Below are positions 1,867 to 63,659 of a stretch of 64,000 bases of DNA, in pieces. Made by a program: the position numbers and the translations under genes. The notes below the pieces were generated by a model, which saw only the letters and a list, made by a program, of their open reading frames with translations, had not been told where the DNA came from and did not search any database. The stretch is taken from positions 62,001-126,000 of the forward strand of contig JAQQWL010000017.1 in NCBI GenBank assembly GCA_038363925.1. Direction: 5' to 3'. Each line of letters opens with the position of its first letter. Within the stretch, counting starts at the first letter, position 1. This DNA is from Apiospora phragmitis (taxonomy: Eukaryota; Ascomycota; Sordariomycetes; Amphisphaeriales; Apiosporaceae).

Positions 1867-4800
1867 TATATTTATTAAGTACTATCTATAGAAACTCAGA
1901 ATTAGCTACTACAGGTGGTTTAATCGTGCGCCGTTTCGCTTTAATTTACCATGGTCTTTAAAGAGACTGCGTGTGGTGACACCACGCTAAAACAACCAAC
2001 TTATCAAAACCTGAAAGGGGGAGAAAACATAGCATGTTGGTAAAGGATGTAACTGAGCCCATTGCTATCAAGTATCTACTTGAGGCTCTTGGAATACATC
2101 CGAGTTATTTATCTATGGTCCGTTCCAACTTTTGATTAGAGTTTGCCACCGCTCCCTTAGTAGCAATAAAAAACTAAGGAATCATCGAATTCCGAGTCAG
2201 GATTAAGCTCAGGACAGTCACCAGATGATTTAATCAGTACAACAAGTACAAAGAAAGAGGACCTAAGGATAAGAAAGGAAAATTCAAAGAAATGCGGGAT
2301 CGCCTAAGGGTAGCAATACCTATGGAGACGGAGCCTTCGTAGTAATACGCCATCCGAGAAAACTTTAGAGATGGTGTACTGAAGGGGGGCAGCTGGGGAA
2401 TCCGGAGTTGATATATTCAACTTAACGGCAGTGAGGTTAAGCGATATGTGCTAGTCAATATTGGCAGTGCATAATCAAATTACCGGCTTAGGACTGACTT
2501 TGGAGGTCAGTAACGTACGAGGTGAATAGACACCTCGGTCTCTAAAAGAACTAAGTGAGACACTACAGTGGAGAGCCGTATGCTGGGAAACTCGCACGTA
2601 CGGTTCGGTGGGAGCGTTCTGGTGGCCCTCGTGGTGCTGGTCTGCGACCCAACTATTTCTTATTAGGTGCCAGGGGGATTGGGACCCCCCCCATATTTGT
2701 GCCTACTATTGCCAAACTCCGGGGAACTCTTAAAGCTTATGATACTAAGCAATGTTTGAAAAAGCATTTGTGGCTGAACTAATTACTCAGATATAGTAAC
2801 AAGTCATAAGATGATGGAAACTGAAATAGGTAATCGCGGATCTAAGTCAAGTGATAATAAAATATTACTTGTAAAAGAGCAACGAGTAAATGGTAATAAG
2901 TTTGATTATCTAATGATGTCAAATTTTAGATGTATTCTAATGGGTTTCGAAAGAAACTATCTAACCGAAGTCCTTTCTAAAAGAAAAACCCCCTCGTCAA
3001 GGTTTTATTATTCTACTATACAAGCTGCTTCCAATAATATTGTAAATGAGCATTTAAGTAGTAATATTTCACCAAAAACCTTTAATCCTAGATTTATCAC
3101 AGGGTTTATAGACGGGGAAGGATACTTTTCTATAGGTATTTCTAAAAATAAAAATAAAGTAGGTTGACAAGTAAAATTAGAATTTGGTATATCATTACAT
3201 GAAAAAGACAGAGCTCTTTTAGAGGATATCCAAAAGTACTTATCAGCTTCTCGGCCCAGGCCTAAGGACCAGGTCCTAGGCCGAAGGGCAGGTGATATTT
3301 TTATACATCCAACTCAAAAAATTATTAAGTATCGTGTCCTTTTTAAAGATCTAGAAAAAATTATTAAACACTTTGATCAATATCCTTTAATGACTCAAAA
3401 GCTAGCTGACTTCGAGCTTTTTAGGTTAGCATATAAATTAGTTTTAAATAAAGAACATTTAAAGTTAGAAGGGTTAAAAAAAAATAGTAGCATTAAAAAC
3501 TACAATGAATAAAGGTTTATCTGATCAATTGCAAGCTGCCTTCCAAGATCTTGTACCTATATCTAGACCTTAGTCGAAAATAAGTGTATACCGGGTTCAG
3601 GTTGAATTGCAGGATTTGCAACGGCAGAATGTTGTTTTTTTGTAAATATTCAAAAATCTGCAACAACTAAGTCTGGAGTGAATATTCAATTAGAATTTAA
3701 TATATCTCAACATAAAAGAGATGAACAGTTAGTAGCGAACTTAGTTAAATTTTTAGGTTGTGGTAATACTTATATTAAAGGTAATATTTGTAGATTTAGA
3801 GTTACAAATCTTACAAATATAATTGTAAAAATACTCCCTTTTTTTAAAGTAAATTTTATCCAAGGTGAAAAACTCAAAGATTTTGAGGATTTTTGTAAAG
3901 TAGCTCAAATAGTGAAAGACAAAAATCACTTAACTCAGAAAGGGTTAGAAAAAATTCGTGAAATAAAAGCTCGAATGAACACTGGAAGAAACTAAACATA
4001 AATTTACTTTTTTTTATGCTGTATCCCCCACCTCTGGTGATGGAGGCAGAAAAAAATAACGAACTATAAATTAAATATTTATTGTGTCTATTTTTAATAT
4101 ATTTTCCATGTGGTTTTTAGCAAGATAAATTCGGCAGCCTTGGGTTTAAGTTCATGTTTTATTTTATTAGGTACAAGTTTATTATATGCTAATTCTGGTA
4201 CAACAAATATGGATGGTTTATACGTAATTACTAGTATAAGTGATAGTATAGGAGGTGCTTCTTCTTGATATCAACCTTATTATATAAATTTCTCTTTACT
4301 GATTTTTAGTATAGGATTTTTATTTAAAGTAAGTGCTGCACCATTCCATTTTTGATCTCCTAAAAAAGGACTTGGGAAATCCTTATCAACAAACGTTGGG
4401 AGTAAACTATCAAATTCCGGGGTACCCCTAAAGCTTCTGGTACTAAACCATATATGAAAATATATGAGTGGCTGAAGTAATTACTCAGGTATAGTAATAA
4501 GTCAGAAGATGAGTAAAAACGAAATGGGCAATCGCGGATCTAAGTCAGTAATATATTTGACCAAACAGTCGAGTATTATTGTAAAAGAGCAACGAGTAGA
4601 TGATAGTTGACGTAGTATTAATTTACTGCGTTTAAGATATACTCTACTGGGCTTCGAAAGAAGTTATCAAGTTAAATTCCCTTCTAATCAAATTATTCAA
4701 AGACAACTTTATTCTACTGTGTCTAAGTTAGACAATAGCAAACTACCTCTAGACCCCTGATTTATATCAGGATTCTCTGATGCAGAAGGATGCTTTCTTG

Positions 4801-7800
4801 TTTTAATTCGTAAATCATCAAAAAACCTACTAGGTTGACAATTAGAGGTTAATTTCACAATTAACCTTCATGCTAGAGACTTAGATCTTTTAAATATTAT
4901 TAAAGCCTATTTTGGAGTAGGAAGAATAAGTAAAGAAAGAAATGGTTGTTGTGATTTTACAATAGGTTCTTTAGATCAAATTATAACAAAAGTAATACCT
5001 CATTTTGATAAATATCCCCTAAAAACTAATAAATATTCTGATTATTTATTATTTAAAAAAGTAGTCATTATGATGCAACGTGGGGAACATTTAAAAGCTG
5101 AAGGTTTACAAAAAATAATTAATATTAGAGCTTCTTTAAATAGAGGATTAACTCCTTTACTATTAGAAGCCTTTCCTAATACTGTTGCTTTAGCAAGACC
5201 ATTATTACCACTTAGTGTAAAATTAGACCCTCAATGGATAGCTGGTTTTACAAGTGGTGATGGTTGTTTTAAAATTAGTATTAGAGAATCTAAATTACAT
5301 AAAACAGGAAGTCGTGTAGTATTACTTTTTGTAGTAACTCAACACATTAGAGATGAATTACTATTGAAAAGTTTAGTAGATTTCTTTGGATGTGGTCAAA
5401 CTTATTCGTATAAAGATTATACTGAGTTTAGATGTCAATCATTCAAGGATAATTATGAAAAGATTTTACCTTATTTCAATAAATACCCTATTATTGGCGT
5501 TAAATCTAAGGATTTTGAAGATTGAGCTAAAGTAGCAAAAATGATACAAACAAAAGATCATTTAACTAACGAAGGTTTCGATCAAATTCGTCAAATAAGA
5601 ACAGGAATGAATAAAGGTAGATATCTATAATAACTACTTTAATTCATTACCCTTATCTGAAAGATTTGGGTGAGAGTAGTATGATTATATAAAGTTGTTC
5701 TTTTCTTTAATTTGGACGATAAATTTAACCGTCATCATGTGGACGTTTATGATGCTATACCAACAATTGTTACAACATTTGTAGCTATTATAGCCAAAAT
5801 ATCTATATTTATACTATTATTAGAAATAGTGTATTTTACAAGTAATTACTTTTCAGAAACAAGTTCATCTCTTAACTGAACATTTGGTTTATTAATGAGT
5901 TCTTTCCTTTCTTTAATAATAGGTACAGTGGTAGGTCTAACACAATTTAGAATTAAAAGATTATTTGCTTATAGTACAATAAGTCACGTAGGTTTTATAT
6001 TATTAGCTTTAAGTATAACTTCTATAGAATCTATTCAAGCATTTATATTTTATTTAATGCAATACTCTATAAGTAATCTAAATGTATTTATTATATTAGT
6101 TATTATGGGATTCTCTTTCGTGCGCCGTTTTGCTTATATTATGTTCGCCAAAATCTTGGCCGAAGTCGTAGACATACTTCGTAAATCAACTAGCTTACCA
6201 AAAACCGAAATGGTGGAGGGACCAAAGCATGCTAGTAAAGCGGATATTGGAGTTGGGCCTATGACACTCTATAGTTATCTGCGAGACAGTATTTCTCATG
6301 GTATCGTTTGCCGTCCTAGATGAGCTTGAATCCACTCCGATAGTGGCCCTAAAACTATCGTATCCAATTTTGATGGGTCAGGGAAGAGCCCTACAAAGTC
6401 TACCTTGGATAATCAATGCCAAACAATGGTAATAGGAGTGATACCTAAAAGAAATGAGATAAACATAATACAAAGAAATACGGGATCACCTAAGGGAGGT
6501 AACTCCTACTGGTGACGGAGCCTCAATAGTAGTTTGAAAATCCGAGACCAAGTAATGATACCTGGACAGAGTTTTCATATCGAAGTGAGGCAGCAAGGAT
6601 ATTCGACGGCGGCTGGTGCTAGTCAAGATGGCAGTGCCAATTCAAAGTTGAACCTGATCGAACTTGACGACAACAAGTTTACCGGACTATATAAAATGAT
6701 AGCGGACCAAAAAACTCTTACCTTAGCGTACAATAATATCAAATCTAATCCCGGAAACATGACCGAAGGAGTGAATTCAGAAACTCTAGATGGAGTCTCC
6801 AATGATTTCCTAGAAAGGCTTTCCAAACAACTTTTGGACGGAAGCTTCCAGTTCAATCCTGCTAGAAGGGTTTACATCCCCAAAGCTAACGGTAGCACTA
6901 GACCCCTAGCAATAGCGTCACCAAGGGATAAGATAGTTCAAGAAGCGATGAGGATGATCCTAGAAACCATATTCGAACCTAAATTCTCGGACCTTAGCCA
7001 TGGATTCCGCCCGGGTAGAAGCTGTCATTCAGCCCTTAAGAGGATCTCTACTTGGAACGGTATCACTTGAGCTATTGAAGGGGACATAAAAGGTTTCTTC
7101 GATAACGTGGATCATCACATACTCGAGAGTCTGCTGAGAAGAAGAATTCGTGACCAGAGGTTCATTGACCTGTACTGAAAACTTGTGAAAACGGGCTATT
7201 TAGAAAGAGGAGTAGCCACGAAACCCGTCATTGGGGTCCCACAAGGGTCGCTAATCTCGCCTTTACTATCTAACATATTCCTCCACGAACTGGACACATA
7301 TATGGAAAATCTAATCGGAGAGTTATCTAGCGGAGAATCGCAGATTTCCAAGCCCAATAGTGAATGGAAGAGTATCACATATCAGATAAGTAAACGGGTG
7401 AAGAAATACGATGAGGAAAAGGACCCGAGCGTACTTAGTGAAATAAGAAAACTGAGGGCCCAGCGTAGGACGGTCAAGTCCCGTATCCGAATCCATAACA
7501 GAGTTTACTATGTTAGATATGCAGACGACTGAATAATTGGTGTTACAGGTAGTCATGAATTCGCAGTAAAGTTCAAAAACCGTATTGCAGAATTCCTGGA
7601 GAAGGAGCTTAAACTAACCTTATCAGAGGAAAAAACTAAAATTACTCATATGAACCGGGATCGAGCCCTATTCCTAGGGTTTAGATTATGAGTTCGAAAA
7701 TCCCTCCTGGCTCCAGTATCTAACCATTATAATCCTCGGGCTAACAAACGTATTGCCCAGAAGATCAACCAGGTCAGAATATGATTTGCCGCTCCTATCT

Positions 7801-10800
7801 CGGAGATAATGAAAGATCTGGAAAAACAAGGTTTTGTTAAAAGATATAGACACAACCCCCATCGACTAGTACCCAACGCAATACCTAAGTTCATTTTCCT
7901 GGATCATAAATCCATTGTGGAAAGGTACAACGCGATTATCAGGGGTTATCTTAACTACTACTCTCCAGCTGACAACTACTTCAAGTTCGGCTCAATTGTC
8001 GGGCATATTCTCAGACATTCGTGTGCTAAAACACTAGCCAGAAAATTCAGACTTAAATCTAGAGCCGGAGCATTCCAAAAATTCGGAAAGAATCTAGGAA
8101 TCTCGGTCACAAAAGGGAAAGACACAAAAGTATATGAGCTAGCCATCCCTCAAAGCTTCCGAAATGTGAGAGTCTTTAAGGTTTCCGGGGGGGTTTCCAA
8201 AAAGACCCCCTTATGACCCTTAATTACAAAATCCATACCCAAACCAAACTAGATGAAATCTGCGCAGTGTGTGGCTCTTCCGATCGAGTCGAAATGCACC
8301 ATGTCAAACACGTACGTAAGGCAGGACTAGCGGTATCCGGCTTCACTAAGCTTATGTCAAGCTTGAACCGTAAACAATTACCCGTGTGTTTCCCCTGTCA
8401 TAGAGAGATTCATAAAGGAAATTACAACGGACTTAGTCTGAATGAGCTTTGAATCAAGGCACATGAAAGTAAGGAAGAGGACTAAACTAAGTGAACACTT
8501 GGATACCCGGTACTGACCAAGGAGCTGAACCCCCCCCCAACATCATTTTAAAACTATAGACTGGTTCTCAGGCATATATCCGAGTGGAGAGCTGTATGCA
8601 TTGAAAGGTGCACGTACAGTTCGGTGGGAGCGTTCTTGAGGCCAAGGGAGTAATATAAGCTCGCCATTCTAACTAGAATCTACCGATTATAATATTCACC
8701 TGGCACAGGTCTGCGACCCAACTATTTTTATGTTACTGAAAATAAAGAACATAAAGAACTTTTAGATAAAAATAATTCTCCTGCCTTGAGGTGTAGGAAA
8801 CCTCTTCAATGGGAGCTATGGCCAAACTCCGGGGACATCCATAATTTTCTGATACCAAGCTTTAATCGAAAGATTTTAAGTGGATGAATTAATCATTCAT
8901 GTATGGTAATAACTCGGATTATGATCGAAAGATTAATGGGTTACCGCGGATCTAAATCAGATTTTTTTAAATCTGTAAAAGAGCAACGAGTAGACGGTCA
9001 TAAATGTGTTAGTTTAATACATTTAAGGTATGCTCTAATGGGTTTTGAGAGAAACTATCCAATCAGAATCCTTTCTAAGCATTTAATTACATCAACAAGA
9101 TCATACACTTCTTCTACAAATTTATCACGTAATTTACCTAATAATCTAAATCCCTGATACTTAACTGGTTTTTCAGAGGGGGAGTCTAACTTTACAGTAA
9201 GAATCTTTCAAAGTAATTTGGTTAAAGTAGGTTGAATTGTTCAACCTGTTTTTCAAATAGGTCTACATAAAAAAGATTTGAGCTTATTAGAGAATATAAA
9301 AACATATTTAGGTGTAGGAGAAATTTATTATAAAGAAACCTCTTGTAACTATATGGTACAATCTTTAAGAGACTTGGTTGTAGTAGTAAATCATTTTGAA
9401 AAATATCCCCTTTTAACTAAAAAACTTGAAGATTTTAAGTTATTTTCTCAAATTGTTACTTTAGTTAATAGAAAAGAACATTTGACAGTTTCAGGTTTAC
9501 AAACAATTATATCTCTTAAAGCTTCTATGAATTTAGGTCTACCTACGGCACTAAAAGTTGCTTTTCCTGATCTTACTCCAGCTATAAGACCTATACGTTC
9601 TAATGAACAAATATTAAACTCTAATATCGATCCATATTGAATGGTAGGTTTTACAGCAGCAGAGGGGTGTTTTAGTATTAGAATTACTAAGTCTTTAACC
9701 ACAAAAACTGGATATCAAGTACAATTAAGATATCAAATTACTCAACATTATATTGATAAGGTATTTATGCATACCTTGGATAAATTTTGAGGCTGCGGTA
9801 AAGTGTTTTTTAGGTTTAGAGAGAATAAAGTAGATTTTCAAATATTAAAATTTAGAGACCTGTGTGAAAAAGTTATTCCTTTATTTCAAAGTATAGATTT
9901 ACAAGGTGTAAAATCTTTAGATTTTGCAGATTTTTGTAAAGCAATAGAGATAATAAAAAAAAAAGAACATTTAACTGCCGAAGGGTTAGATAAATTACGT
10001 GTATTAAAACAAGGTATGAATAGAGGTAGATTATAAAAACAAAACTTCAAGAGATTTAAGTTAAGTCTTTAAGCGTAAGTTCTTGTTTTTCATTCTGTAT
10101 GTAATTATTTGTATGATAAATCTGGCCGCCATGATTCAATTAATAAGTCAACTAAGAGGATATTTTTATATTAATCCTTTTTTAGCTTTAAGTTTTGCGA
10201 TTACAATATTTTCATTTGTAGGTATACTGGAATGCCTACGTTTAGGTTAATATATATATGTATAATTATTACTACGAGTTTGTGGGTTACCTCAACTCAG
10301 CGTAATAAATAAGCAAGCTATAGCAAGGTTACTGGCTTATGCAGCTAGGCCGCGCCGTATATTATAACCAAAAAAAAAATATCACTATATGCTGGAAACT
10401 TCTAATGCTCTGAATACTAATGTTATATATTAGTAAAAATTTTAGAGCGTATTAATGAACAATCAGCAGAAAACTACTCATAAAAAGATTTATATAGCTT
10501 TTTGTAGGATTCTCAGAGACTACACGTGATACATTGGGCTGTATGTAAGCCTAGTGAAGATATAGTCCAAATTAATTTTTAGATTCCATACTTTTTATCT
10601 AAGTTAAATCTTTCGTATGTTTTGCTTTTTTTCCTTCTCGCCAAGCATCCCAGGTCCAAGGCCCTGTGTCTGGACCGAAGGGCAGAGCTAGGTCGAGTGT
10701 CAGCCATAGGGTTTAACCTACCTAATAAAAGATACTATTCAATTAATAGTACACCAGTTAATTCTAATAATGGACAATTAGGTCCATACTTAGCGGGTTT

Positions 10801-13800
10801 AATCGAGGGTGACGGCCATATTTATGTATCTTCAGTTGGGAACTTATCAACCAAAAAAACATGACCATCTTATATTGAAATAGCTTTTGATATTAAAGAT
10901 TTACAACTCTTTACAAAAATAAAGGAAAATTTAAAGGGTGGTTATATAACTATTAGACCTAATGGTCAAAGTGGTAGATTAACTATTAAAAAACGTGATA
11001 TTTTAATAAACCTGGTAAAATTAATTAACGGTCATTTTCGTACACCGAAAATTGAAGCTTTACACCGTTTAATTGAAAATTTAAATAAATATAGTAATGA
11101 ATCAATCCCTTTACTCGGTTTAGATAAAAAGCCTTTAGGAGAATCTGCTTGATTATCTGGGTTTTTAGAGGCAGATGGTTATTTTTATTTAAATTGGAAG
11201 TTAAATAAAAAGGATTTACCTGTCGGAATAACTTATTATTTATATATTAGTCAGAAACAGAATTATGAAAGAAAAGTCGATTATTCTGTAAATGAAAGTA
11301 ATTTTTCTCATATGGAGGATATAGCTAAACTACTTAATAGTAAAGTAATATCCATCGAAAGAAAAAGAACTAACTGTATTGAAAAGCTATATGTTGTAAG
11401 AACAGATAAAAAAGATTCTAAGGTTATTATTTTTGAGTATTTAAATAAATTTCCCTTGTTTGGTTATAAATCTTTTGCTCAAAAAAATTTGCAAAAAATT
11501 CATGGTTTAGTTTTAAGCAGAAAGCATAAAGAGCTAGATGGTAAAATTAAGTTGGATAAGTATACTGTAAATATGAAAAAAGATGTACGCGAGATAGAGT
11601 TCACACATTTAGATAAATTCTATCAAAATTAAAAAAGGTTCCACCTCTTGTAGGGTTCTTTGCTAAACAGATGGTATTAAGTGCTGCTTTAGATAGTGGT
11701 TATGTTTTCTTATCTTTAGTTGCTATATTAACTAGTGTAATTGGTGGAGTATATGTGCGCCCTTTAATTGATATAACGCCCGGGTCATTAAACCCTCTCT
11801 CTGAAACGCTGAGAGATAAACCTATCAACTTATCCGATTTCGAAATGAATAGGGGAGTGCAGCATGTTGATAAAGGCTCAAAAAGTCTTAACTATATAGA
11901 TTTCCGCCAAGCCGAGGTAATTCTTTCTCATGTAAAATTTAACCATCAAGCCAACCACACACCAGTTAAATCGAAAATAGTTGATACGATTTTACAGAAG
12001 ATATGTCTAAAAAATATACTTATACATATTGTTTCCTTCTGTAGGCTAGAGACAACATGTCTAACGATGTTTGCTAAAAGAAAGATATCAGACGTTATAT
12101 TAAGAACTGGGGATCTCCTAAGGAAAGTGATTTCTAAATTAAGTTTTAGACTTATTTCTTTGATTAATATCAAAGGGAGACGGAGTTTTCGTAGTATCAA
12201 CGGCCTTCATAAGTTGAGTCGTAGAGAAGGGAAACAGAATCTAGTCGATAAATTTAGTACAGTCGTTGTAAAATACCCCGTATTTTACACTACATACTTA
12301 AGATCGATCATAGTACGAACAGAGGAGTCGATGGTTAAGTTGACTCAAGATCAATTTAGATTTATTTTTAATAAAGAACAAAAAAGATTTATTGCGACCC
12401 TTCGCTATAAAAAAGAACCGGACATAGTTATAAATCCTACTTATACTTTAAATCCTTGATTTTTAACAGGCTTCACGGATGCTGAAGGAACATTTAGTAT
12501 TAGCCTTAGAAAATCATCTAGTTCTCGTTCAGGTTTTATAATTCACCCTCTTTTTCAAATAGGACTTCATATAAAAGATACTGAGCTCTTAAAAGAGATA
12601 CAAGCTAATTTTAAGGGAATAGGTCGTATATCTAATAAAGAAAACTCTGTATATTTCAGGGTACAATCTTTGGAAGAAATTTTGAATGTAATAATTCCTC
12701 ATTTCGATAAATATTCTTTGATTACTCAAAAGCTAGCTGATTATCTTTTGTTCAGAAAAATTGTTATTAAGATGAAGGATGGAGAACATCTAACTAAGGA
12801 AGGTCTTCAGGCAATTGTTAATATACGAGCTACAATTAATTTAGGTTTATCCGAAGATTTAAAGGCAGCTTTTCCTAATACAATTCCGGAACCTCGGCCA
12901 TTAATAGAGAATCTTAAAATTACAGATCCAGAATGGATTGCAGGGTTTGTCTCTGGTGAAGGTTGTTTCTACATTGGTTTATGAAAAGCAATAGATAGAA
13001 AGTATGGAGTTAGAATTAGAGTAGATTTTATTATCACTCAGCATTCTCGTGATGAGCTATTATTAAGAAGTTTCGTTGATTATTTTAAATGTGGGTCTTA
13101 TTCTAAAAAAGCGAGAAGTGGCGAATTTATAGTGAAAAATTTTACGGATATAATTGCCAAAATCCTACCTTTTTTTCAAAAGTATAAAATTAGAGGTGTG
13201 AAATCTTTGGATTATCAGGATTGATATCGAGTGGCCGAAATAATGCAAGCCAATAAATATTTAACTCCGGAGGTTATAGACGAAATTCGTCAAATAAAAG
13301 GGGGTATGAATAAAGGTAGGAAATAAAAGGGACTGATGGAAGGAAGCACATAATGTTTTAAGTGAGGTCCAAAGTATGAAAGGTATCTCTTGAGTAATAG
13401 TAGGGGATCTAGAGCTGATAAATTTTAGTATACGATATGTTGAACAATCATCCGGGTTGGTCAATCTTTTCTTGATACTCTTTGATGAATATATGAACAA
13501 ATTAAGTAAAGAAAATTTAGCCCAGAACCATATGCCGCCGATAAGAGTAGAAGGTAAAATCAGATATACTCGGTGTGCAGATAAATTCTTAGTAGGAGTT
13601 GCCGGTAGTTATAAGGATGTAAAACTTATCAGACATTTACTTAAAGATTTATTAGAAAAAGAACAGGGTTTTATGTCTATCTTCCGGATTAGGCACGAAG
13701 TGGATAACCTAAAAATAATACATTTAGGCAGTAACTATGCTGAATTTTTAGGTTATTATATTAAAGTTCCCTCTTATTCTCAACTATTAGGAAGTCGTGA

Positions 13801-17979: not shown

Positions 17980-20334
<2,355 letters not shown>

Positions 20335-21583: not shown

Positions 21584-22242
21584 CTTATTTAATTCTAGCT
21601 ATATATAGGTAAAATTAAATGTATGTTTATAAATTATATATATAATATAAGTGGGTATACTTATAATTTTATAATTTGAATTATTTAAATGTAAGTTATT
21701 ATTTAATTAAACCACCTAAATAAGAAAATATCTATTTAATAATAGTTATTTTTAATATTTAGATCCTCGTATAAGAATATTAAGGATAATCATTTTTAAT
21801 TGCCTTTGGTCTCTCTTTACCACGAAGTGATAAAAAGGGGGGAAACAAGAGAATTACGGAGAAGATATTTTTGTCTTTCTGATACCAGTATAGATAAAAA
21901 TAATAAAGCCGTAAAAAAAAAATAAGGAACCAGATATAAAGTAAATAAAAATAACATTTTAGTGCCTAGTCACTCGGCCTCCGCCCAAGTTTCATTGTTT
22001 TTTCTTGCCCCGAGGGCATGAAAAAACACAGCAGACGCCCGAAACTAAAAAAGAGATATTTATTTTAAAATTAGCTTAAAAACTAAAATTATATCATATG
22101 AACCACACATTAATCTTTAACTCTATAATTAATTATGTAATAAATTATTTTATTGCCCTGATCCCTTTCCATCCTTACAGGAAAAGGAAAAGGGCACGAA
22201 AAAGAATAGTTTTATAGAGATATTTCTAAAAAAAAGTAAATT
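21584..22242. other. Spacer between the atp9-linked ORF and cox2
   Basis: AT-rich. It holds hairpins near 21800-21870 and 22151-22196 (TGCCCTGATCCC paired with GGAAAAGGGCA) and a family A element at 21974-22047. No tRNA or ORF was recognised. Confidence 0.6.
21974..22047. repeat. GC-rich element, family A
   Basis: TCGGCCTCCGCCCAAGTTTC, a TTTTTTCTTGCCC / GGGCATGAAAAAA hairpin and GACGCCCGAAACTA. Confidence 0.78.
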
Positions 22243-44187: not shown

Positions 44188-44210
44188 TTGTTTGTAAAAT
44201 CCTTAGAAAG

Positions 44211-44676: not shown

Positions 44677-46026
44677 ATGGAGCCCGCAGATTACACATTT
44701 GATCGGAATCTTCTCGGGAGCTCTCCCAAAATCAAGAAGGGATCTGGTTATTACCTCATCACAAAAGATGGCCGCAAGGTGTTTGACGCAGCTTCAGGTG
44801 CAGCTGTCTCTTGTCTTGGTCACGGGAAGATAAAAGTTCAGCTAGCCCTGGTTAAGCAAATATTCACAGGGATTACCTATCTTGCTTCTTCATTTTGGGC
44901 CAACGATATCGTCAATGACTTGTGCGCGGAACTCATCCAAGGTACAAATAACCAAATGGGTAGAGTCTACTTGACAGGGTCAGGTTCTGAAGCAATGGAG
45001 GCTGCGCTCAAGCTATCTCGCCAATATTTCTATGAACAGAACTCGGAAACCACTCGAGTAAATTTTATTTCTCGAGAACGTTCCTACCACGGGAACACTA
45101 TCGGTGCTTTGAGTGTCTCAGGATTTAAGGCTCGCACAAAACCTTATGAGCCACTCCTTATGAAAAACGTTTCCTTCATTCCCCCATGTTACCAATATCG
45201 TCAACAAGGGGCTGATGAATCGGACCAAGATTTTGTGTATCGAAAGGTCCTGGAACTTGAGGATAAGTTCCAACAGTTACCCCACGAGAGTGTGATAGCC
45301 TTCATTGCTGAACCTGTCGTTGGGGCTGCGCTAGGGTGTGTCCCTTCTCCTCCAGGCTATCTTAAAGGAATTCGAGAGGTATGCGATAAACATGGCGCTC
45401 TTCTTATTCTGGATGAAGTCATGTCCGGAATGGGACGAACTGGTACTTTGCATGCATGGCAACAAGATAATGTAGTACCTGACATCCAAACCGTGGCTAA
45501 AGCACTGGGAGGTGGATATGTACCTGTTGGAGCCGTGTTGGTGTCAAATAACATCTACGATGTTATAAAGAAAATAAGTGGAGTATTTGTCCATGGACAA
45601 ACTTATCAATCTATGCCATTGCAGGCAGCTGCTGCTCTGAGTGTTCAACGAATCATCCGGAAAAAAAACTTGGTGGAGAATGTAGCTATACAGGGCAGGT
45701 ATTTAGGAGATCAGCTACATGACAAGTTAAGCGAGCACACTAATGTGGGAAATATTCGTGGAAAGGGTCTTTTTTGGGGTATAGAATTTGTCGAGAACAA
45801 AGATACCTCAGAACCCTTCGCCTCTGCGCTTGAGGTTGCTACAAAAATTGTGAAGTTAGGCATTTCCGAGTTCGATATTGCAGTCTATCCAAGTACAGGC
45901 TGCGCGGATGGTGCTAGGGGGGGGCGCGACCATATTATGATCGCCCCCGCGTACACGGTCACGAAAAAGGATGTTGACTACATAGTTTCTAAGGTAAACC
46001 TTCTGGTAACCACATTTTTTTTCTAG
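44677..46026 (+). CDS. Nuclear-type class III (PLP) aminotransferase, intact
   Basis: The family moves amino groups from omega-amino acids or similar substrates to an oxo acid; the substrate cannot be told from sequence. The ORF has 449 residues and no intron. PLP signatures are present: phosphate-binding GSGSEA (101-106), YHG (137-139), LILDEVMSGMGRTG with Asp246, the Schiff-base lysine in AKALGGGY (Lys275), and HGQTYQ (306-311). Its three Trp are all TGG and there is no internal TGA, so it reads the same in both codes. Codon use is plainly GC-richer than its neighbours. It sits among mitochondrial tRNAs and GC elements, with mitochondrial genes on both sides. I infer transfer from a nuclear genome; an assembly chimera is the alternative. 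A decayed relative lies at 42709. Confidence 0.88.
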   Translation: MEPADYTFDRNLLGSSPKIKKGSGYYLITKDGRKVFDAASGAAVSCLGHGKIKVQLALVKQIFTGITYLASSFWANDIVNDLCAELIQGTNNQMGRVYLTGSGSEAMEAALKLSRQYFYEQNSETTRVNFISRERSYHGNTIGALSVSGFKARTKPYEPLLMKNVSFIPPCYQYRQQGADESDQDFVYRKVLELEDKFQQLPHESVIAFIAEPVVGAALGCVPSPPGYLKGIREVCDKHGALLILDEVMSGMGRTGTLHAWQQDNVVPDIQTVAKALGGGYVPVGAVLVSNNIYDVIKKISGVFVHGQTYQSMPLQAAAALSVQRIIRKKNLVENVAIQGRYLGDQLHDKLSEHTNVGNIRGKGLFWGIEFVENKDTSEPFASALEVATKIVKLGISEFDIAVYPSTGCADGARGGRDHIMIAPAYTVTKKDVDYIVSKVNLLVTTFFF

Positions 46027-46431: not shown

Positions 46432-46508
46432 AGTATGTTTGTCTAAAGATAAGACCTTAGTATATTATCTTTAATATTAAGATATTGGTTCGAGTCCAAT
46501 ACATATTT
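46432..46508 (+). tRNA. tRNA-like structure with enlarged anticodon arm
   Basis: Acceptor AGTATGT/ACATATT (one G-U), D arm GTCT/AGAC, perfect T arm ATTGG/CCAAT with loop TTCGAGT. The central arm CTTAGTAT/ATATTAAG closes a 10-base loop ATTATCTTTA, too long for a standard anticodon arm, and the D loop lacks GG. No anticodon can be assigned with confidence. Confidence 0.35.
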
Positions 46509-46572
46509 ATTATTTGTTAGAATACATAACAAATATTTTTATTACAATAATTTAATTTTTTGAATATATATA

Positions 46573-49165
46573 ATGAATATTACTTTAATACTTTTTTTAA
46601 TAGGGATCCTAGGATTTGTGTTGAATAGAAAAAATATTATATTAATGCTTATTTCTATAGAAATAATGCTATTATCTATAACATTTTTAATATTGGTAAG
46701 TTCACTTAACATTGACGATATAATAGGACAAACTTATGCTATTTATATAATAGCAGTAGCAGGTGCAGAATCTGCTATAGGTTTGGGTATTCTAGTTGCT
46801 TTTTACAGATTAAAGTCCTCCCTTGAATTACATCCTTATTTTATAGCTCCATTATTTCCCCTCATCCCTTTTCTTTATGATGCCTTCGGGATCCCCCGGA
46901 TATCTCATTATCTCGATGAGATAAGAGATAAGAGGGGGAATAAAGAAGAGATACCGGAAAGGGCACGAAATATATACCCTAATTTTTTATTGGGGCACGA
47001 AAAAGTTCGATTTTTTTCTACAAATGCTAAACAAATGCGTAAAATAAATTCGTCCCTTATGTCAAATAAATTAGATTCTTCATTTATTACGGGTTTAATT
47101 GATGCAGAGGGTTCTTTTGTTGTAACTCGGCCTCCGCCCAAGTTTCATTGTTTTTTCTTGCCCCTCGGGGCAAGAAAAAACACAGAAGACGCCCGAAACT
47201 AAATATAATAATTATATTTATTTTAAAGAAGCTGCCTTTATCATTAAAAATAAAGAGCACCTTACAAATGAAGGTATGGATAGAATCATAGAACTAAAAG
47301 CTATAATTAATAAGGAATAATTTAAGGTTTTGATCAAAAAAGATAAAGTAAACCTTTATCTAGTTATAGTTCTACCTATAGCTAAACTTTCAAATTGCGG
47401 GAAGGTCTTAAAGACAAATCTACCAAATTAACATAGTAATATAGTTAATGGCATAGGTAATGACTCATGGTATGGTAAAAACGGTTTGTATATATAGATA
47501 ATCTGCAGCCAAGCACCTACTCCGTTGCCCCCACACGAGCAGCAAAGCTGCGTAAGTGTGTGAGGGCTAGTATTCTAAGGAATAATGGTGTGCAGTTCAT
47601 CGACTAAATGGAAGTTGGTTTATTTTTAATAAGCTTAAGATATAGTCAGTTTCAATATGAAAGTATTGGAGTAAAACGAAGAGGAAGTCATTTTGCTCAT
47701 CTAATATATATGGACTATATTTATATTCTATCTCGTCTAACCCTTTTTAACCAGAGTCATCTTGCAACAGCCGCAATAAACACAGCAAATAACAATAATA
47801 ATCACCCAGAAATAGTACGAACCTCTCGTCCTATGAGTCACAAAAGCCTTAGATATTTATCTTCAAGTTCGCAGAACAACAACGTACTACCTTCAGTAGG
47901 AAAAATCTCAACTAATACGGAGGCTCACGAAGGGTTGGTAGAAGAGAGCTTACATAGCTGATTTATCACAGGGTTTACCGATGCTGAGGGTTGTTTTAGA
48001 ATAAGTTTGGTTAAAGACCTTCGTAATCGTTTGGGTTGAAAGATACAAGCTTTTTTTTTAATCAACCTTCATTTAAAAGATCTAGATCTCTTAAAGCAAA
48101 TTCAGGTGTATTTTGGAGGTATAGGTGCGGTTACATGCTCAAAAGATAAATGTCATTATGTAGTAAGTTCTTTGTCTCAAATATCTAATACAATTATCCC
48201 TCACTTTGATAAATATCCTTTAATATCTCAAAAACAAGGAGATTACCTCTTGTTCAAAGATGTGGTATCAAGGATGTTAAATAAAGAACATTTAACTCGA
48301 GAAGGTTTAAGGCAAATAGTTGCAATAAAGGCTTCTTTAAATTTAGGGTTGCCAGAAAAAATAAAACAGGCTTTTCCTTTAGTTATTCCTGTTCAAAGGC
48401 CTACAACTTTAAAACCGGTAATCCCGCATGCTAAATGAATGCAAGGGTTTATTACAGGTGAAGGCTGTTTTTTTGTGAATATCTTTAAATCTTCACACCA
48501 TAAGTTAGGTTTCCAGGTGAGGGTAGAATTCGAGCTGGCTCAACACATTCGTGATAGTTTATTAATAGAGAGTATTAAAGATTATTTCTGTTGTGGAATT
48601 GTTAGTAGTTATTCTAAAGGTATGGTGAAGTTTAAATGTATAAGTTTTTTAGATATATCTTCTATAATCATTCCTTTTTTCAAAGAGCATTTCCCTCTGG
48701 GTAATAAACGTTGAGATTTTGTGGATTTTTGTATAGTTGTTAAATTAATGGAAGATAAAGCTCACTTATCAAAGGAAGGACTAAAGCAAATCCATAGTGT
48801 AAAAGCCAGCATGAATACCAAAAGAGTCAAAGAATAGTAAATCTTTTGGTTACAATTAATTGCAATTGCTGCTTCTTATTATTTAAAAGCAGGTAGATAG
48901 GTGCTATTGTGGTGATGCAGTATATTCCTTTCCATCGCATAATATTGCGTCACAAATAGGCAGGTGGCGGGTGGTGTATGACCGGTAAAGGGGCCGGTCC
49001 TTGTAAAGGTACCCTAGTAAGAAACTATGTAGAATCTTTCTAGGGCTCCCTTACAGTAGATAAAAGATAGATGATAGAAGATAGAAACAAACCATGTTAA
49101 TATTAGGGCGAATGTCCGGAATGTCTTCGTTACGAAGAGGAAGTATTGCCATAGAATATAAATAA
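46573..49165 (+). CDS. nad4L: NADH dehydrogenase subunit 4L, two exons
   Basis: Nad4L is a small complex I membrane subunit. Exons 46573-46811 and 49135-49165 join to 89 residues: [32 protein letters not shown], then the conserved [18 protein letters not shown], completed by [10 protein letters not shown]. The TAA overlaps the nad5 ATG by one base (TAATG), the usual fungal coupling. The split codon (TT + A) and the G before the second exon support the boundary. Two decayed or captured nad4L copies occur downstream in nad5 intron 1. Confidence 0.93.
46812..47320 (+). pseudogene. LAGLIDADG endonuclease reduced to its ends
   Basis: In frame with nad4L exon 1. A linker ends RFFSTNAKQ (47008-47034), then motif 1 [16 protein letters not shown] family A element (47127-47201) follows at once and the frame stops at TAA 47200-47202. 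Behind it only the last 35 residues of a LAGLIDADG protein remain ([20 protein letters not shown]) to TAA near 47320. The whole middle, including motif 2, is gone. Confidence 0.78.
47127..47201. repeat. GC-rich element, family A, full form
   Basis: TCGGCCTCCGCCCAAGTTTC, TTGCCCCTCGGGGCAA hairpin, GACGCCCGAAACTA; sits at the deletion point of the LAGLIDADG remnant. Confidence 0.8.
47608..48837 (+). CDS. LAGLIDADG homing endonuclease
   Basis: ATG 47608 lies inside the end of the ribozyme core; TAG at 48835-48837; 409 residues, with TGA as Trp. RYLSSS is at 47851-47868. Motif 1 is [15 protein letters not shown] (47960 on), motif 2 [14 protein letters not shown] (48436 on), with the typical C-terminal ASMNTKR. 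It is intact and probably the active mobility gene of this intron, having taken over from the truncated one upstream. Confidence 0.84.
48838..49134. other. 3' end region of the nad4L intron
   Basis: Contains a GACCGGTAAAGGGGCCGGTC hairpin (48979-48998). No coding sequence was recognised. Confidence 0.5.
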
Positions 49166-52100
49166 TGTATTTAAGTATAATAATTTTACCTTTATTAGGA
49201 TCTATAGTTGCTGGCTTTTTTGGTAGAAAAGTTGGAGTTAGCGGTGCACAGTTTATTACATGTTTTAGTGTAATTACAACTACAATATTAGCAATCATAG
49301 CTTTTTTTGAAGTAGGTTTTAATAATATACCAGTTTCAATTGAATTATTTAGATGAATAGATAGTGAATGATTTAACATTGTATGAGGTTTTGAGTTCGA
49401 TAGTTTAACAGTTTCTATGTTAATACCTGTTTTAATTATTAGTTCTTTAGTTCATATTTACTCTATAAGTTACATGAGTAACGATCCTCACATACAAAGA
49501 TTCTTTAGTTATTTAAGCTTATTCACATTTATGATGATTATATTAGTTACAGCTAATAATTACTTATTAATGTTTGTAGGTTGAGAAGGTTACCCTAATA
49601 GCCTTAGATGACTATATTTATACAAAGATAAATATTTCAGCCTTTCGGTCGGGACTAGTCCCCTCGCGGGGACTTGTCCACGCCTTGGGGACAAGGCTCT
49701 CCCTGCGAAGCAGGGAGGGACTAGTTTGAAGAATAAAACAAGTTTTATTCTTCAAAACCGGAAAGGTAAAAATATTAGATATATAACAAGTAATAATAAT
49801 AATAATAATGATTGTTTAATAGTAGGATCTTTATTGGGTAATTCTTATATGGAGAAGAATGAAAAAGGAGTAAGAATAGTCTTTATAAAATGTAGTGATA
49901 ATATAGAATATTTAATGCAATATTATAGCTATTTAATTAATATGGGTTATTGTAAATTAAAAAAACCTGTTTTAAATAAATTAATCTCTAAAAAAAATAA
50001 AATTTTATATTATTATAAAATAGAAAGTTATTATTTAACTGAATTTGAAAGATTCTTTCAAATATTTTATAAAAATAATCTTAAAATTATACCTTTAAAT
50101 TTAAATGAGTGTTTAACACCCTTATCTTTAAGTATATGATATTTAGATAATAACCCTAAGTTCTATATTTCAGATAATCAAAGCTATTATTTAAATAATA
50201 ATGACTTAGATTTTATATCTCAAAATTTAAAATCTAAATTTGATATAAATACAAAATATAAATTAGAAAAAGGTCTAGTTGCTTTTTATATTGAAAAGGC
50301 AAATTTAAAGAATTTTAGTACTTTAATAAAACCACATATTTCTCCTTCTTTACAATATAAATTAAATGATTCATATAATAAATTTATTATATGAAATAGT
50401 ATTAAATCTCCATTAAGAAAAAATTCTAATCCGTTATTGCATAATAGCCTAAGAAATTACACTACTAATGCAAATAATTTGAAATATTCTGCCCTTCGGC
50501 CTAGGCCCTGGACTAGGTCCTTAGTGCCTAGGCCTGTTTATTTTTTTTATTTTTATTTTTTTTTTACTGATCTACAACCATAAATTGTAATATAATAAAA
50601 AAAAAAATAAAAAAAAAAAAAAATATAGTTTCGGCCGCCACTTAAGGTGGCTGAAACTTGGCCGGAGGCCGAGAGAGGTTAAATATAAAAAAGAATATGT
50701 ATTAAGCAATATTCAAAAAGAGGCATTAATAGGTATAATACTAGGTGATGGTTTTATTGAAAGACTTAAACCGAATCATAATGCAAGACTTAGAATAGAA
50801 CAATCTTATCCTGAAAAAAGTGAATATTGAAACTTTTTATATGAATTATTAGAACCTTTAACTGCAATGGAACCTACGTTATTAACAACCTCCTTTATTT
50901 TTTTTAATCTTTTTTATTATATTACAATCTTTAATTGTGTTAATGTTAAAAAGATTAAAAAAATATACAGGACTCGCTGCGCAGTATCTGTGCCGAGGCC
51001 GAGGGGGGGAGAATATAAAAAAAAGAGGTGTTACTACTAAATCATTATATTTTAGAACATTAGCAATGCCTTGTTTAAATTATTTTTACGAATTATTTTA
51101 TAAACATGGTATAAAAATAATACCAAGAAATTTAGAAGAATTATTGACAGCTCGAATCCCCTATTACCCCCTACGGGGGTACACGGGGATATGGTTTAGC
51201 TTTTTTTCCCTCCTCCACCGTCTATGTGTTATTCGCTTTTCTAGTGTATTATTATTGGTATATCCTTTAAATAATTATATAGGAAACTTTCTTTTAATTG
51301 TATTATATATTCATCTTATTTCTTATGTTATAAGTTTAAGTAGTGGCACCCCAGGTTTAACCCTTTCTTCTTATGTAGCAAGCCAAAGTTAGGTTAGTAT
51401 TTTTAATCTCAATATAATTAAACATTAGTTATAAGTGGTCATCCAACTATGTTTTGCTAGTGATGGTATAAAAATTGACAGGTGGTGGTACAAAAATTTT
51501 AAGGTGATGGTGGAAAAAGTTTGTCTATTTTATTTAGATAGGTTGCGATTTCCATACATCCCTGCGTTATGAAATTAACGTAGAATTTTACAATAATTTA
51601 AGTAAGTTTATAAATATACAATGTTAATTACACTGATACTTTTTATACTTGGAATTTTATGTTCCAAGTTATATAGAAAAATTATTATATTAATACTCCT
51701 CTCGGTAGAGATGATGCTATTATCTATAGCATACCTAATAATAGTAAGTTTAAAAAACATGGAAGAAGGCCAAATCTGAGCGATCTACATTATTGCTTTT
51801 CCGGTTGTTGAATTTGTAACAGGAGGTTTGGGTATTTTAGCTGCTTTTTATATACGAAGTTTGAATCTAGAATATAAACCATTTTATTTAAATAAAAAAA
51901 CTTTACCTTTTTTAGGATCTATAGTTGCTGGCTTTTTTGGTAGAAAAGTCAGGGTAAACGGAGCACAGCTTATTACATGTTTTAGTGTAATTACAACTAC
52001 AATATTAGCAGCTATAGCGTTTTTTGAAGTAAGATTTAATAATAAAGATGGTTTTAAACTTAACAGTCTTGGTGCTAATCGAAATATAAATTATATATTA

Positions 52101-61934: not shown

Positions 61935-63659
61935 TCCGGGGGGGATAGGCAAAAGATATTTGGGGGCGAAGCCCTCCCTAATCAAATAAATCCATATTTC
62001 ATAACAGGATTTACTGATGCTGAGGGTTGTTTCCTTATTAATGTAAGACCTAACTCTAAAATGAAAATAGGTTATTCTGTAGAGTTAGTTTTTAAGATAG
62101 CTTTACATGTAAAGGATAAAGTATTAGTTGAAAATATACGTAATTATTTTAATGTAGGTACAGTAGTTACATATAGAGGATCAGATTGTATTCAATATTG
62201 AGTTGGTTCTTTAAAAGATCTACAAGTTATTGTTCATCACTTTGATAATTATCCTTTGATTTCGCAGAAATGGTCAGACTATCAGTTATTTAAACAAGTG
62301 GTGGATTTAATGAAAGGTAGAGAGCATTTAACTCAAGAAGGTTTACAAAAAATAGTCTCAAGAAAAGCTGTATTAAATAATAGTTTACCAAAGGAGTTAA
62401 AAATAGCTTTTCCTGATACTGTCCCAGTTATAAGACCTCAGCTAAGTAATCAAATAATACCAGATCCACATTGAATATCGGGGTTCGTAGACGGTGAAGG
62501 TTGTTTTTTTATAGCCCTTAACTCTTCATCTAATAAGGTAGGTGGAACAGTACAATTAAATTTTTTAGTTGCACAACATTCTAGGGATACTTTATTATTA
62601 AAAAGTTTTGTGAATTATTTTAATTGTGGAAACTATTATTTTAAACATTCAGGAGAGGCGGTAGAATTTGTTTCAAAATTTAAAGATATACATGAAAAAA
62701 TTCTACCATTCTTTGAAAAGTATTCTCTTATAGGATCTAAATCTATAGATTTTACTGATTTTTATAAAGCAGCGCAACTAATTAAAAGTAAAGTTCATTT
62801 GGAATTGGAAGGGTTAGAGAAAATTAAACAAATCAAACGAACTATGAACAAAAGTAGAGAGGTAAAAATAGGATCTTCAACTACTATTATGTCAAAAGTA
62901 AATAAAAGATCTTATTCTACTGTCCGTGATTTTAATAACCAGATGGAGGAGCTGGCGCCCCCCAAAATTTTTCAAGAGTGATTAGGGGGATATATTGATG
63001 CAAATGGTCAATTTATTTTAACCAAAAAAGGTTCTCCTAGTTTAAAATTAGTTGCTACGATAAAAGACAAATCAGCATTGTATAAAATAAAACATAAATA
63101 TGGGGGATCTATAAAGTCTATCTCGGGATCTAAAGCGTTAAAATATAAATTACAAAATAAAAAAGCTTTAATTAGTTTAGTCGAAGATGTTAATGGGTCT
63201 ATTAGAAATCCCACAAGAATGCTCCAATTGAATAAAATATGTGTAAAATATAATATTAAACTTAAAGAACCTTTATCTTTAACTTTTAGTAATGGTTGAT
63301 TTAGTGGTTTTCTAGACGGAGATGGATCTATTCATATAGATGAAAATTCAGGTCAATTAATTATTAGTGTTACTCAAAAGAATAAATATTTACTAAATCC
63401 GTTACAAATTTTGTATGGTGGAAGAATCACCATACTTAGTAGCAAAGAAGCGTTTCAATATACTATTTCTAGAAAAAAAGAAATATTAAATTTAGTAAAT
63501 AATTATTTTCAAATTTATCCATTGAGATCTTGCAAAGCAGCTAGACTTAATTTAATTAATACCTATTATCTTTATTGTGACCATCGATTTTTGAATGTTA
63601 ATCAACTCGAAAAATTCAATCAGTGGATAGAATTTCAAAATCAATGAGACAAATTATAA
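61935..63659 (+). CDS. Double homing endonuclease with four LAGLIDADG motifs
   Basis: One frame from the last upstream stop (61932) to TAA 63657-63659, about 574 codons with TGA as Trp. Endonuclease 1: [14 protein letters not shown] (62001 on) and WISGFVDGEGCFFI (62472 on). A linker with RSYSTV (62907-62924) follows. Endonuclease 2, of another branch: WLGGYIDANGQFIL (62979 on, Asn at the acid-adjacent site) and WFSGFLDGDGSIHI (63297 on). The part upstream, in frame with nad5 from 61515, is shifted from this frame at a G-run near 61938-61944 and stops at TAA 61987-61989. If the G-run is read one base differently, the whole is a single Nad5 fusion. Confidence 0.82.

Follow-up and report, generated by a model that had tools for sequence, protein, structure and literature searches.

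The window analysed here is a stretch of 64,000 nucleotides of an Apiospora phragmitis mitochondrial contig. It contains a series of open reading frames (ORFs, named below by their first nucleotide) for LAGLIDADG and GIY-YIG endonucleases of introns, some fused to nad, cox2 or nad4L exons, and a short peptide motif recurs in their linkers (Table 1). The LAGLIDADG_1 ORFs score above the Pfam PF00961 cut-off, and ORF 47608, the one for which a PDB alignment was made, also aligns to solved I-OnuI-type enzymes; ORFs 19300, 24470, 30217, 33926, 38928 and 51606 score above the cut-off of Pfam PF01541 (GIY-YIG).

Table 1. Endonuclease ORFs and motif sites in the window (aa, amino acids)
Feature	Position	Strand	Pfam assignment and motif site
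LAGLIDADG_1 intron ORF (first half)	2667..3512	+	Pfam; RFYYST 3000-3017, ~30 aa ahead of domain
nad exon-fused double-motif LAGLIDADG_1 ORF	4098..5630	+	Pfam Proton_antipo_M and LAGLIDADG_1; RQLYST 4701-4718
LAGLIDADG_1 ORF	8693..10036	+	Pfam; RSYTSS 9098-9115, 21 aa ahead of domain 1
LAGLIDADG_1 ORF	10583..11632	+	Pfam; RYYS 10730-10741, 20 aa ahead of domain 1
GIY-YIG ORF	19300..20022	+	Pfam; RFYS 19534-19545, 20 aa ahead of domain
cox2 exon-fused LAGLIDADG_1 ORF	22240..24186	+	Pfam COX2_TM and LAGLIDADG_1; RNYSS 22762-22776, 31 aa ahead of domain 1
GIY-YIG/NUMOD3 ORF	24470..25462	+	Pfam; RVYSTS 24626-24643 (residue 53)
LAGLIDADG_1 ORF	25759..27180	+	Pfam; RQFSYS 26137-26154
LAGLIDADG_1 ORF	27739..29247	+	Pfam; RGFST 27991-28005, 35 aa ahead of domain 1
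ORF with NUMOD1 and GIY-like stretch (by eye)	36198..37871	+	RKFSTS 36408-36425, far upstream of GIY-like stretch
nad4L exon-fused ORF	46453..47202	+	Pfam, nad4L part only; RFFST 47008-47022
LAGLIDADG_1 ORF	47608..48837	+	Pfam; RYLSSS 47851-47868 (residue 82), 38 aa ahead of domain 1
RNYTT junction site	50452..50466	+	After LAGLIDADG_2 unit of ORF 49162-50583
Double ORF, two folded LAGLIDADG units	61935..63659	+	RSYST 62907..62921 (residues 325-329) in linker

The first-pass annotation had listed thirteen such peptides (all sites in Table 1 except RNYTT) as a recurring R-x-[FY]-[ST]-[ST] motif, lying before the endonuclease domain in otherwise dissimilar linkers of both LAGLIDADG and GIY-YIG genes. 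All thirteen are present, in frame (translation table 4); the full pattern R-x-[FY]-[ST]-[ST] fits seven and not the remaining six, and the core R-x-[FYL]-[ST] fits eleven, while RFYYST and RQLYST match only in a different register. The motif does occur ahead of both LAGLIDADG_1 and GIY-YIG domains, except that RKFSTS lies about 100 residues ahead of a GIY-like stretch recognized by eye, for which there was no Pfam GIY-YIG call at E ≤ 1e-3, NUMOD1 being the only assignment in ORF 36198. The linkers of ORFs 2667, 4098, 8693 and 25759 are visibly related rather than dissimilar, so the sites in these four are not independent. By eye, an interrupted LAGLIDADG stretch follows RFFST in ORF 46453, and RNYTT is followed by a broken LAGLIDADG_2 frame with matches at 50720-50890 and 51018-51152 of the window.

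The motif is real, enriched, conserved and a feature of the protein sequence. Linkers were taken as the 80 amino acids ahead of endonuclease domain 1; the contig has 78 such ORFs, and the shuffle test kept 75 linkers after the three shorter than 20 amino acids were left out. The full pattern occurs in 4 of the 25 window linkers (0.21 when shuffled) and in 8 of the 50 linkers from the contig beyond the window (0.33 when shuffled), a count that 0 of 5000 shuffles reached; the core pattern occurs in 15 of these 50 against 4.27, again with no shuffle of 5000 as high. Within-linker shuffles, reversed linkers and swapped linkers served as controls. The density of the full pattern is 2.31 per 1000 residues in the out-of-window linkers versus 0.27 downstream in the same ORFs, and the wider R-x-[FYL]-[ST]-[ST] has a density of 0.24-0.37 per 1000 when the contig is read in other frames. 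The enrichment over composition-matched linkers on which the earlier proposal had staked itself is strong in sequence that its author had not seen. Many ORFs are without the motif, which in its strict form is present in 12 of the 75 contig linkers and in an extended form in 21 of 65 usable ones. In those 65 (13 of the 78 ORFs are omitted, having an endonuclease domain in the 400 bases before them or a linker under 25 amino acids), arginine is favoured before [FY][ST][ST] (12 cases versus 1.68 expected) and lysine is not (2 versus 3.41).

An unguided search, which scored four-position patterns found in at least five linkers, ranked the motif first in the out-of-window linkers (8/46, expected 0.27) and in two homologue sets, LAGLIDADG (24/55, expected 0.55; from the best 120 of 2088 matches) and GIY-YIG (22/28, expected 0.22; from the best 120 of 754), with p-values that are affected by homology, as conserved enzyme motifs are also picked up: H[LIVM][ST]..G ranked second in the out-of-window linkers, and conserved patterns headed the C-terminal control. 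Of these best 120 matches, 107 and 113, respectively, were kept, the rest having no recognized domain start or fewer than 25 amino acids before the domain. After deduplication the motif is present in 19 of 27 GIY-YIG homologues (0.15 expected) and in 25 of 62 LAGLIDADG homologues (0.62 expected). Among the matches listed, the cox2-family GIY-YIG proteins share a conserved island with R in 39/40, Y/F in 40/40, S/T in 39/40 and T/S in 37/40, and many homologues of ORF 24470 also carry the COX2_TM exon domain. The full pattern is missing in 16 of the 113 GIY-YIG homologues; ten of the 16 retain R-x-Y, three (P0172, P0173 and P0178) have no arginine and three more have no site. The three without arginine lie outside our alignment A2, which compares the window protein with 37 homologues hand-picked from the 120, mostly by length (alignment A1 compares the window protein with 34 homologues hand-picked from 118). 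We considered and rejected the idea that the motif is a piece of the endonuclease fold: residues 1-69 of ORF 24470 are predicted to be disordered, with pLDDT ~26 in the motif segment, and near-full-length PDB relatives of ORF 47608 align from residues 111-117 onward, beyond RYLSSS at residue 82.

The motif is also found where two endonucleases share one chain. The predicted structure of the double ORF has folded units at residues 16-306 and 341-574, and the linker between them (307-340, pLDDT < 50) is its sole internal disordered stretch; RSYST was correctly placed there by the first-pass annotation. As modelled, the protein would be laid out like a tandem precursor that is processed internally, an unstructured stretch carrying the site between its two folded units. 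Five of five downstream motif matches in the 78 ORFs of the contig fall between endonuclease units, and in the homologues with downstream matches (those listed) nine of nine GIY-YIG and three of five LAGLIDADG proteins have them there. Among the best 120 of 566 database matches to the double ORF, 42 of 71 homologues with a recognizable second unit have the motif at the junction, versus 0.58 when shuffled (47 of 118 without a recognizable start of the second unit are not counted), and K-x-[FY]-[ST]-[ST] is enriched at these junctions as well (11/71 versus 1.42). Junctions with the motif include those of LAGLIDADG_2 units.

What might act at such sites? The consensus R-x-[FYL]-[SA] that the first-pass annotation gave for MPP and Icp55 agrees with the literature on MPP, which gives R-X↓[FYL]-[SA] (arrow, cut), with FST and FHT as the best P1'-P3' residues; the Neurospora Su9 MPP site lies in KRAYSS. 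In our pattern, likewise, Arg stands at position -2 relative to the MPP cut, P1' is [FYL] and P2' is [SAT]. The flanks resemble presequences, being basic and acid-poor upstream with an asymmetry of charge: D/E make up 3.1% and K/R 15.5% of residues upstream of 79 sites, versus 7.2% and 12.7% upstream of 84 controls (D/E difference, p = 1e-7). A second, more distal upstream arginine was found important in engineered MPP linkers (PMC10450427). Another arginine lies within 10 residues upstream at 39 of 132 sites, and R or K at 116 of 132, most with lysine. The A. phragmitis genome encodes Icp55 (6a9v_A, E 9.2e-112) and MPP-alpha (1hr6_A, E 9.6e-107) and has an MPP-beta exon (8ab6_A, E 1.3e-96; 8q1b_A, E 1.7e-88); nuclear-encoded mitochondrial proteins of the species have motif-like sites near their N-termini, and Icp55 itself has RSYST there. 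Group II RT ORFs, examined as a third class, count the other way: R-x-[FYL]-[ST]-[ST] is absent from the 170 residues ahead of the RT domain in all seven. Two of these ORFs (C19:62224 and C19:193348) carry RRRSFHS and a third (C19:1986) carries RSYTH, both of which resemble presequence ends. In yeast, the cox1 aI2 protein may have R-Y-F-S-T ahead of its RT domain.

We consider it probable that the motif is a portable MPP/Icp55 cleavage site, which frees endonucleases from their exon fusions and splits tandem endonucleases. A chain of exon and endonuclease, or of two endonucleases, would be translated by mitochondrial ribosomes, MPP would cut it at R-x↓[FY] within the disordered linker, and Icp55 would then take off the exposed aromatic residue, leaving a stabilizing S/T N-terminus in front of the folded enzyme; the exon-encoded part and the peptide derived from the ribozyme would be thrown away, and tandem endonucleases would be separated in the manner of a polyprotein. 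In the double ORF the predicted MPP cut is at R-S↓Y, and removal of Y by Icp55 would make S-T the new N-terminus of the second enzyme. The earlier proposal that matrix proteases release exon-fused endonucleases is supported by the enrichment, the conservation, the junction copies, the charge asymmetry and the motif-like sites of nuclear-encoded mitochondrial proteins; that the motif is cut, and by MPP and Icp55, we infer from sequence. 

It is unlikely that the linkers are instead cut at or near the motif by another mitochondrial protease, such as m-AAA, Pim1/Lon, Oct1 or an unknown one. Yeast Pim1 mutants have altered expression of intron-containing genes, which counts for such a protease, and a literature search for a link between maturases and Pim1 found nothing relevant. 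The literature accepts that exon-fused intron proteins are processed and calls the machinery little known, and a passage in PMC5714876 (citing Arlt et al. 1998) places maturases under proteolytic control by the m-AAA protease; this passage weighs against MPP and Icp55 and for another protease. The m-AAA control could, however, be indirect, or could follow or run beside MPP, and the site is sequence-specific, agrees position by position with the MPP/Icp55 consensus and has presequence-like charges beside it. We know of no need of ATP-dependent quality-control proteases for R-x-[FY]-S-T. Quite unlikely, too, is a short linear motif with some other function, in binding to nucleic acid, to membrane or to a partner protein. 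Any such motif could show an Arg and a Tyr conserved together where disorder is predicted, but this one precedes both LAGLIDADG_1 and GIY-YIG domains, recurs at junctions including those of LAGLIDADG_2, lies outside the solved fold and is identical to a published protease consensus.

That the enrichment merely reflects linker composition or shared ancestry seems very improbable to us. S, Y, K and N abound in the linkers, some of which are kin (2667, 4098, 8693, 25759), and homology enters the p-values of the pattern enumeration, which also finds conserved enzyme motifs; against this stand the within-linker shuffles, the reversed and swapped controls, the deduplicated homologues and the presence of the motif before and between nucleases of unrelated families. 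Chance with composition was rejected on the shuffles, the deduplicated homologues, the preference for arginine and the pattern ranking. A constraint on RNA or DNA (ribozyme core, splice or recombination element) rather than on protein has next to no probability: the ORFs, by eye, presumably overlap in part with ribozyme core sequence, but synonymous codons differ among 19 sites (AGA/CGA/CGT, TAT/TAC/TTT/TTC/TTA and TCT/AGT/TCA/ACT), on which ground this candidate was rejected, and the same peptide is retained in unrelated nuclease families.

The proposed cleavage by MPP and Icp55 has relatives among known systems. Like presequence cleavage (R-2 to R-3) it would use R-x-[FYL]-[SA/T]-[ST] after a basic, acid-poor stretch, but the present substrates are both encoded and made by the mitochondria themselves, and the cut would fall within the chain, behind an exon peptide or a preceding enzyme. 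Yeast Arg5,6, as described in a passage of PMC8847149 (citing Friedl et al. 2020), is also a single chain, which MPP divides internally into two enzymes; it is nuclear-encoded and imported, whereas the present proteins are endonucleases of mobile elements and are synthesized in the matrix. In synthetic polyproteins a 10-residue linker, RGGGRRAFHT, was cut internally in E. coli with yeast MPP, and the version selected for yeast mitochondria had this linker in double copy (PMC10450427); these too have an MPP site working inside a polyprotein, but are engineered with extra upstream arginine, whereas ours are natural with mostly lysine upstream. Exon-fused intron proteins are known to mature by proteolysis (Guo et al. 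1995 and Pellenz et al. 2002, cited in PMC7487136), and passages in PMC7487136 and PMC5714876 similarly describe proteins that are fused to the upstream exon and then lose their N-terminal portion; those passages name no cleavage site and neither MPP nor Icp55, where we offer a candidate site and proteases. PMC10448965 reports the fusion of a LAGLIDADG gene with a resident GIY-YIG ORF and the cox1 exon, again two endonucleases sharing one frame, and the available portion of its text has no wording on proteolysis, processing or polyproteins. The folded parts match I-OnuI-type LAGLIDADG and I-TevI-type GIY-YIG homing endonucleases, but the motif lies upstream of the region covered by solved structures. 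Viral contigs scanned with ORF 27739 gave 22 pattern stretches and no relative, a plasmid search gave only partial matches (one Peribacillus and one Proteus record), and our literature search found no paper crediting MPP or Icp55 with the processing of intron endonucleases.

More broadly, and with less assurance, we lean towards the view that the mobile introns of fungal mitochondria bring an MPP/Icp55 site along within the endonuclease cassette, so that a nuclear-encoded import protease of the host matures a selfish element and allows safe fusion to host exons and the stacking of several endonucleases in a polyprotein that processes itself, MPP being the missing maturation protease of organellar intron proteins. 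The motif supplies a named pair of proteases, exact predicted cut positions and simple mutants. If the proposal is true, a site like those cut by the import proteases explains how intron endonucleases are released from the fused protein, the substrates of MPP and Icp55 include proteins synthesized within the organelle, and tandem endonuclease ORFs represent polyproteins that occur naturally in mitochondria. The sites would then also offer a principled choice of start point when new homing endonucleases are cloned as genome-editing tools, and host nuclear genes would govern both the mobility of mitochondrial introns and their supply of maturase.

The window covers bases 62,001-126,000 of the 224,601-base contig C19, a large mitochondrial genome (the fungal genome as a whole is 52.7 Mb in 19 contigs) on which 90 LAGLIDADG_1 and 20 GIY-YIG matches were listed, and Rfam matches in the window comprise four group I and four group II introns. 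Domain starts were set mechanically by Pfam searches, which gave 78 contig ORFs, 75 of them with a linker (the stretch before the first endonuclease domain) of at least 20 aa. The first-pass annotation had described thirteen window peptides as cases of R-x-[FY]-[ST]-[ST] and expected this motif to be enriched before domain 1. All 13 peptides are in frame where it placed them; the core R-x-[FYL]-[ST] fits 11 of the 13, but the full motif only 7. The earlier reader saw the window only, which makes the remainder of the contig independent data, and there the enrichment was borne out: in the 80 aa before domain 1 the full motif is present in 8 of 50 linkers against a shuffled mean of 0.33 (8 or more in 0 of 5000 shuffles), the core in 15 of 50 against 4.27 (0 of 5000), and the plant ICP55 consensus R-x-[FYIL]-[SA]-[ST], taken from a review, in 8 (n = 50) against 0.81.

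Across all 75 linkers the full motif occurs in 12, its reversal in 1 and two swapped patterns in none; replacing R by K, D/E or N gives 3, 2 and 2, and altered spacings give 0 to 5, the 5 coming from R[FY]x[ST][ST], a pattern in partial overlap with the motif (RFYST is an example). When patterns with four specified positions within six residues were enumerated blindly in a reduced alphabet and scored if present in at least five linkers, R-x-[FY]-[ST]-[ST] ranked 1st of 231 in the out-of-window linkers (8/46, expected 0.27) and also 1st among LAGLIDADG (24/55, expected 0.55) and GIY-YIG homologues (22/28, expected 0.22); this procedure removes kinship only partly: motifs conserved among the enzymes score too, and they come first in a control made of C-terminal tails. 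Two places before [FY][ST][ST], in 65 contig linkers, Arg was found 12 times (1.68 expected) and Lys twice (3.41 expected). Arg is thus strongly preferred without being absolute, because the Lys form is also enriched at the junctions of double-ORF homologues (11/71 against 1.42). A lysine version, KVYFSTS, stands in two window linkers and is possibly a decayed or weaker site.

For GIY-YIG ORF 24470, 113 of the best 120 homologues were usable, and 97 carry the full motif before the domain (shuffled 0.52; 19/27 after deduplication, shuffled 0.15); of the other 16, ten keep R-x-Y (e.g. RTYCT, RYYSN), three lack the Arg (LAYST, LFYST) and three lack a site. The nearest named homologue among the best 120 is from Diaporthe. 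Most homologues of this ORF, of ORF 47608 and of the double ORF are database proteins without a name, and the few named ones listed (Fusarium, Juglanconis, Chrysoporthe, Hypomyces, Diaporthe, Monilinia, Dematophora) are ascomycetes. For LAGLIDADG ORF 47608 the figures are 40/107 (shuffled 1.03) and, deduplicated, 25/62 (0.62). A script picked 40 GIY-YIG proteins with divergent linkers, and in these the motif stands out as an island of conservation, with R in 39, Y/F in 40, S/T in 39 and T/S in 37 (4.4, 3.4, 2.6 and 3.5 bits, adjoining aligned columns having about 0.7 to 2.3); further upstream the cox2 exon and intron start are also conserved. Of the columns ahead of residue 77 in a hand-picked 38-protein alignment only R53 is invariant; Y55 reaches at least 90% conservation. 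Synonymous codon choice varied at the 19 R-x-[FYL]-[ST]-[ST] sites of the 78 ORFs, so the constraint acts on the protein.

In these two ORFs the motif lies outside the predicted or solved fold. AlphaFold2 gives residues 1-69 of ORF 24470 a pLDDT below 50 (block means 26-34), its fold begins after about residue 70 and I-TevI aligns from residue 94, the motif being at 53; near-full-length PDB relatives of ORF 47608 align from residues 111-117 on, the motif being at 82. A conserved Arg in a tail predicted to be disordered looks like a short linear motif, for example a protease site.

Of the 19 R-x-[FYL]-[ST]-[ST] sites only 5 follow a first domain, and all 5 are between endonuclease units (Table). 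RSYST had been placed between the two endonucleases of the double ORF 61935-63659, and AlphaFold2 agrees: the one internal stretch with pLDDT below 50 (307-340) separates well-folded units 16-306 and 341-574 and contains RSYST at 325-329. A second unit was recognisable in 71 of 118 new homologues of this ORF, and 42 of these have the full motif in the 60-residue stretch ahead of that unit (mean over shuffles 0.58, maximum 4; deduplicated 22/44, shuffled 0.38). Where homologues of ORF 24470 have a downstream match, it precedes a second GIY-YIG domain in 9 of 9; for ORF 47608 it is at a unit boundary in 3 of 5, the off-boundary cases being proteins P0063 (C-terminus) and P0119 (C-terminal stretch).

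Table. Motif sites at endonuclease junctions and other features of contig C19
Feature	Position	Context
RSYST	window 62907	between LAGLIDADG pair and LAGLIDADG unit
RRYST		between LAGLIDADG_1 and LAGLIDADG_2
RNFST		between LAGLIDADG_1 pair and LAGLIDADG_2
RSFST		between GIY-YIG and LAGLIDADG_1; LAGLIDADG_1 frame with stop
RNYTT	window 50452	between LAGLIDADG_2 and following broken LAGLIDADG_2 frame
KVYFSTS linkers	window 51606-52370; 53352-55682	before GIY-YIG and NUMOD1/LAGLIDADG regions
RRRSFHS	RT domain at C19:62224; C19:193348	presequence-like, upstream of RT domain
RSYTH (presequence-like)	RT domain at C19:1986	upstream of RT domain
Class-III aminotransferase ORF	window 44521-46026 (ATG form 44674-46023)	PF00202, E 4e-79
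Further aminotransferase pieces	C19:202050-203343; C19:204873-205298	
tRNA-Arg (two)	window 42617-42689; 44116-44188	anticodon ACG, 1.5 kb apart
Long ORFs (two)	window 40499-42103; 20546-21583	neither matches Pfam at E<=1e-3; Gly/Ser-rich repeats in one

The nuclear contigs match the aminotransferase ORF at 52-53% identity where the matches are longest, and at 57% and (in a stretch of 44 aa) 73% in shorter ones; other fragments of it are found elsewhere on C19. It therefore does not look like a recent copy of a nuclear gene. Many reverse-transcriptase matches listed in the nuclear contigs hold several TAA/TAG stops, as expected from repeat-induced point mutation. None of 7 group II RT ORFs in C19 has the full motif within the 170 residues leading up to its RT domain.

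The surroundings of the motif resemble a presequence end in part. The 20 residues upstream of 79 non-redundant sites have 3.1% D/E and 15.5% K/R (downstream 11.2% and 9.4%), compared with 7.2% and 12.7% (downstream 7.7% and 13.5%) at 84 control Arg sites from linkers without the motif (upstream D/E, p=1e-7, Fisher's test on residues). A basic residue directly precedes the motif Arg in 27% of 132 sites, versus 9-19% at neighbouring positions; another Arg lies within 10 residues upstream in only 39/132, and R or K in 116/132. A polyprotein-engineering paper (PMC10450427) names FHT and FST as optimal at P1'-P3', places the second cleavage site of Neurospora Su9 in KRAYSS and reports that an Arg further upstream also matters for MPP cutting. 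In E. coli ten residues were enough for MPP to cut internally, and for yeast mitochondria its authors chose two copies of the site. According to a review of mitochondrial processing (PMC8847149), MPP/Icp55 sites are R-X|X or R-X-[FYL]|[AS]-X with Icp55 taking off Y, L or F, the plant ICP55 consensus is RX(F/Y/I/L)|(S/A)(S/T), and the tandem Arg5,6 precursor is cut internally by MPP. Icp55, MPP-alpha and MPP-beta are all encoded in the genome. Five mitochondrial proteins among 19 nuclear loci had an N-terminal exon readable by eye, and all have motif-type sites close to where the presequence presumably ends: RSYAE in Atp1, RSYAT in an isocitrate-dehydrogenase-family protein, RRSYSTS in Icp55, RGFAT in MPP-beta and RGLSS or RALAS in MPP-alpha; this is an illustration, not a test, as the pattern was looked for and the ends are presumed.

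That organellar intron ORFs are often made as exon fusions needing proteolysis, with the mechanism an obvious gap, is stated in a passage of a 2011 review (PMC3073962), and such maturation is stated again in part of PMC7487136. The passages seen of PMC7272585 and PMC11528492 do not link intron-encoded endonucleases to the processing peptidase, and the other papers listed that mention both bear titles on unrelated subjects. No paper assigning this processing to MPP/Icp55 was found in the open-licence literature searched for homing endonucleases and LAGLIDADG proteins, in some searches among the top matches listed. The best-documented rival protease is the m-AAA protease, which, in the passage seen of PMC5714876, exerts proteolytic control over maturase-dependent splicing. 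The full motif is present in 12/75 linkers and an extended form in 21/65; therefore a large share of the ORFs must rely on a different route or a weaker site, or do without. In the mechanism proposed for those that carry the motif, the chain of exon and endonuclease would be synthesised in the matrix, where its linker is probably exposed; MPP would make a cut at R-x|[FY] that freeing the enzyme probably requires, and Icp55 would then trim the aromatic residue, giving an endonuclease that begins with S/T. Cutting by MPP/Icp55 in this way may likewise release the second enzyme of tandem ORFs.
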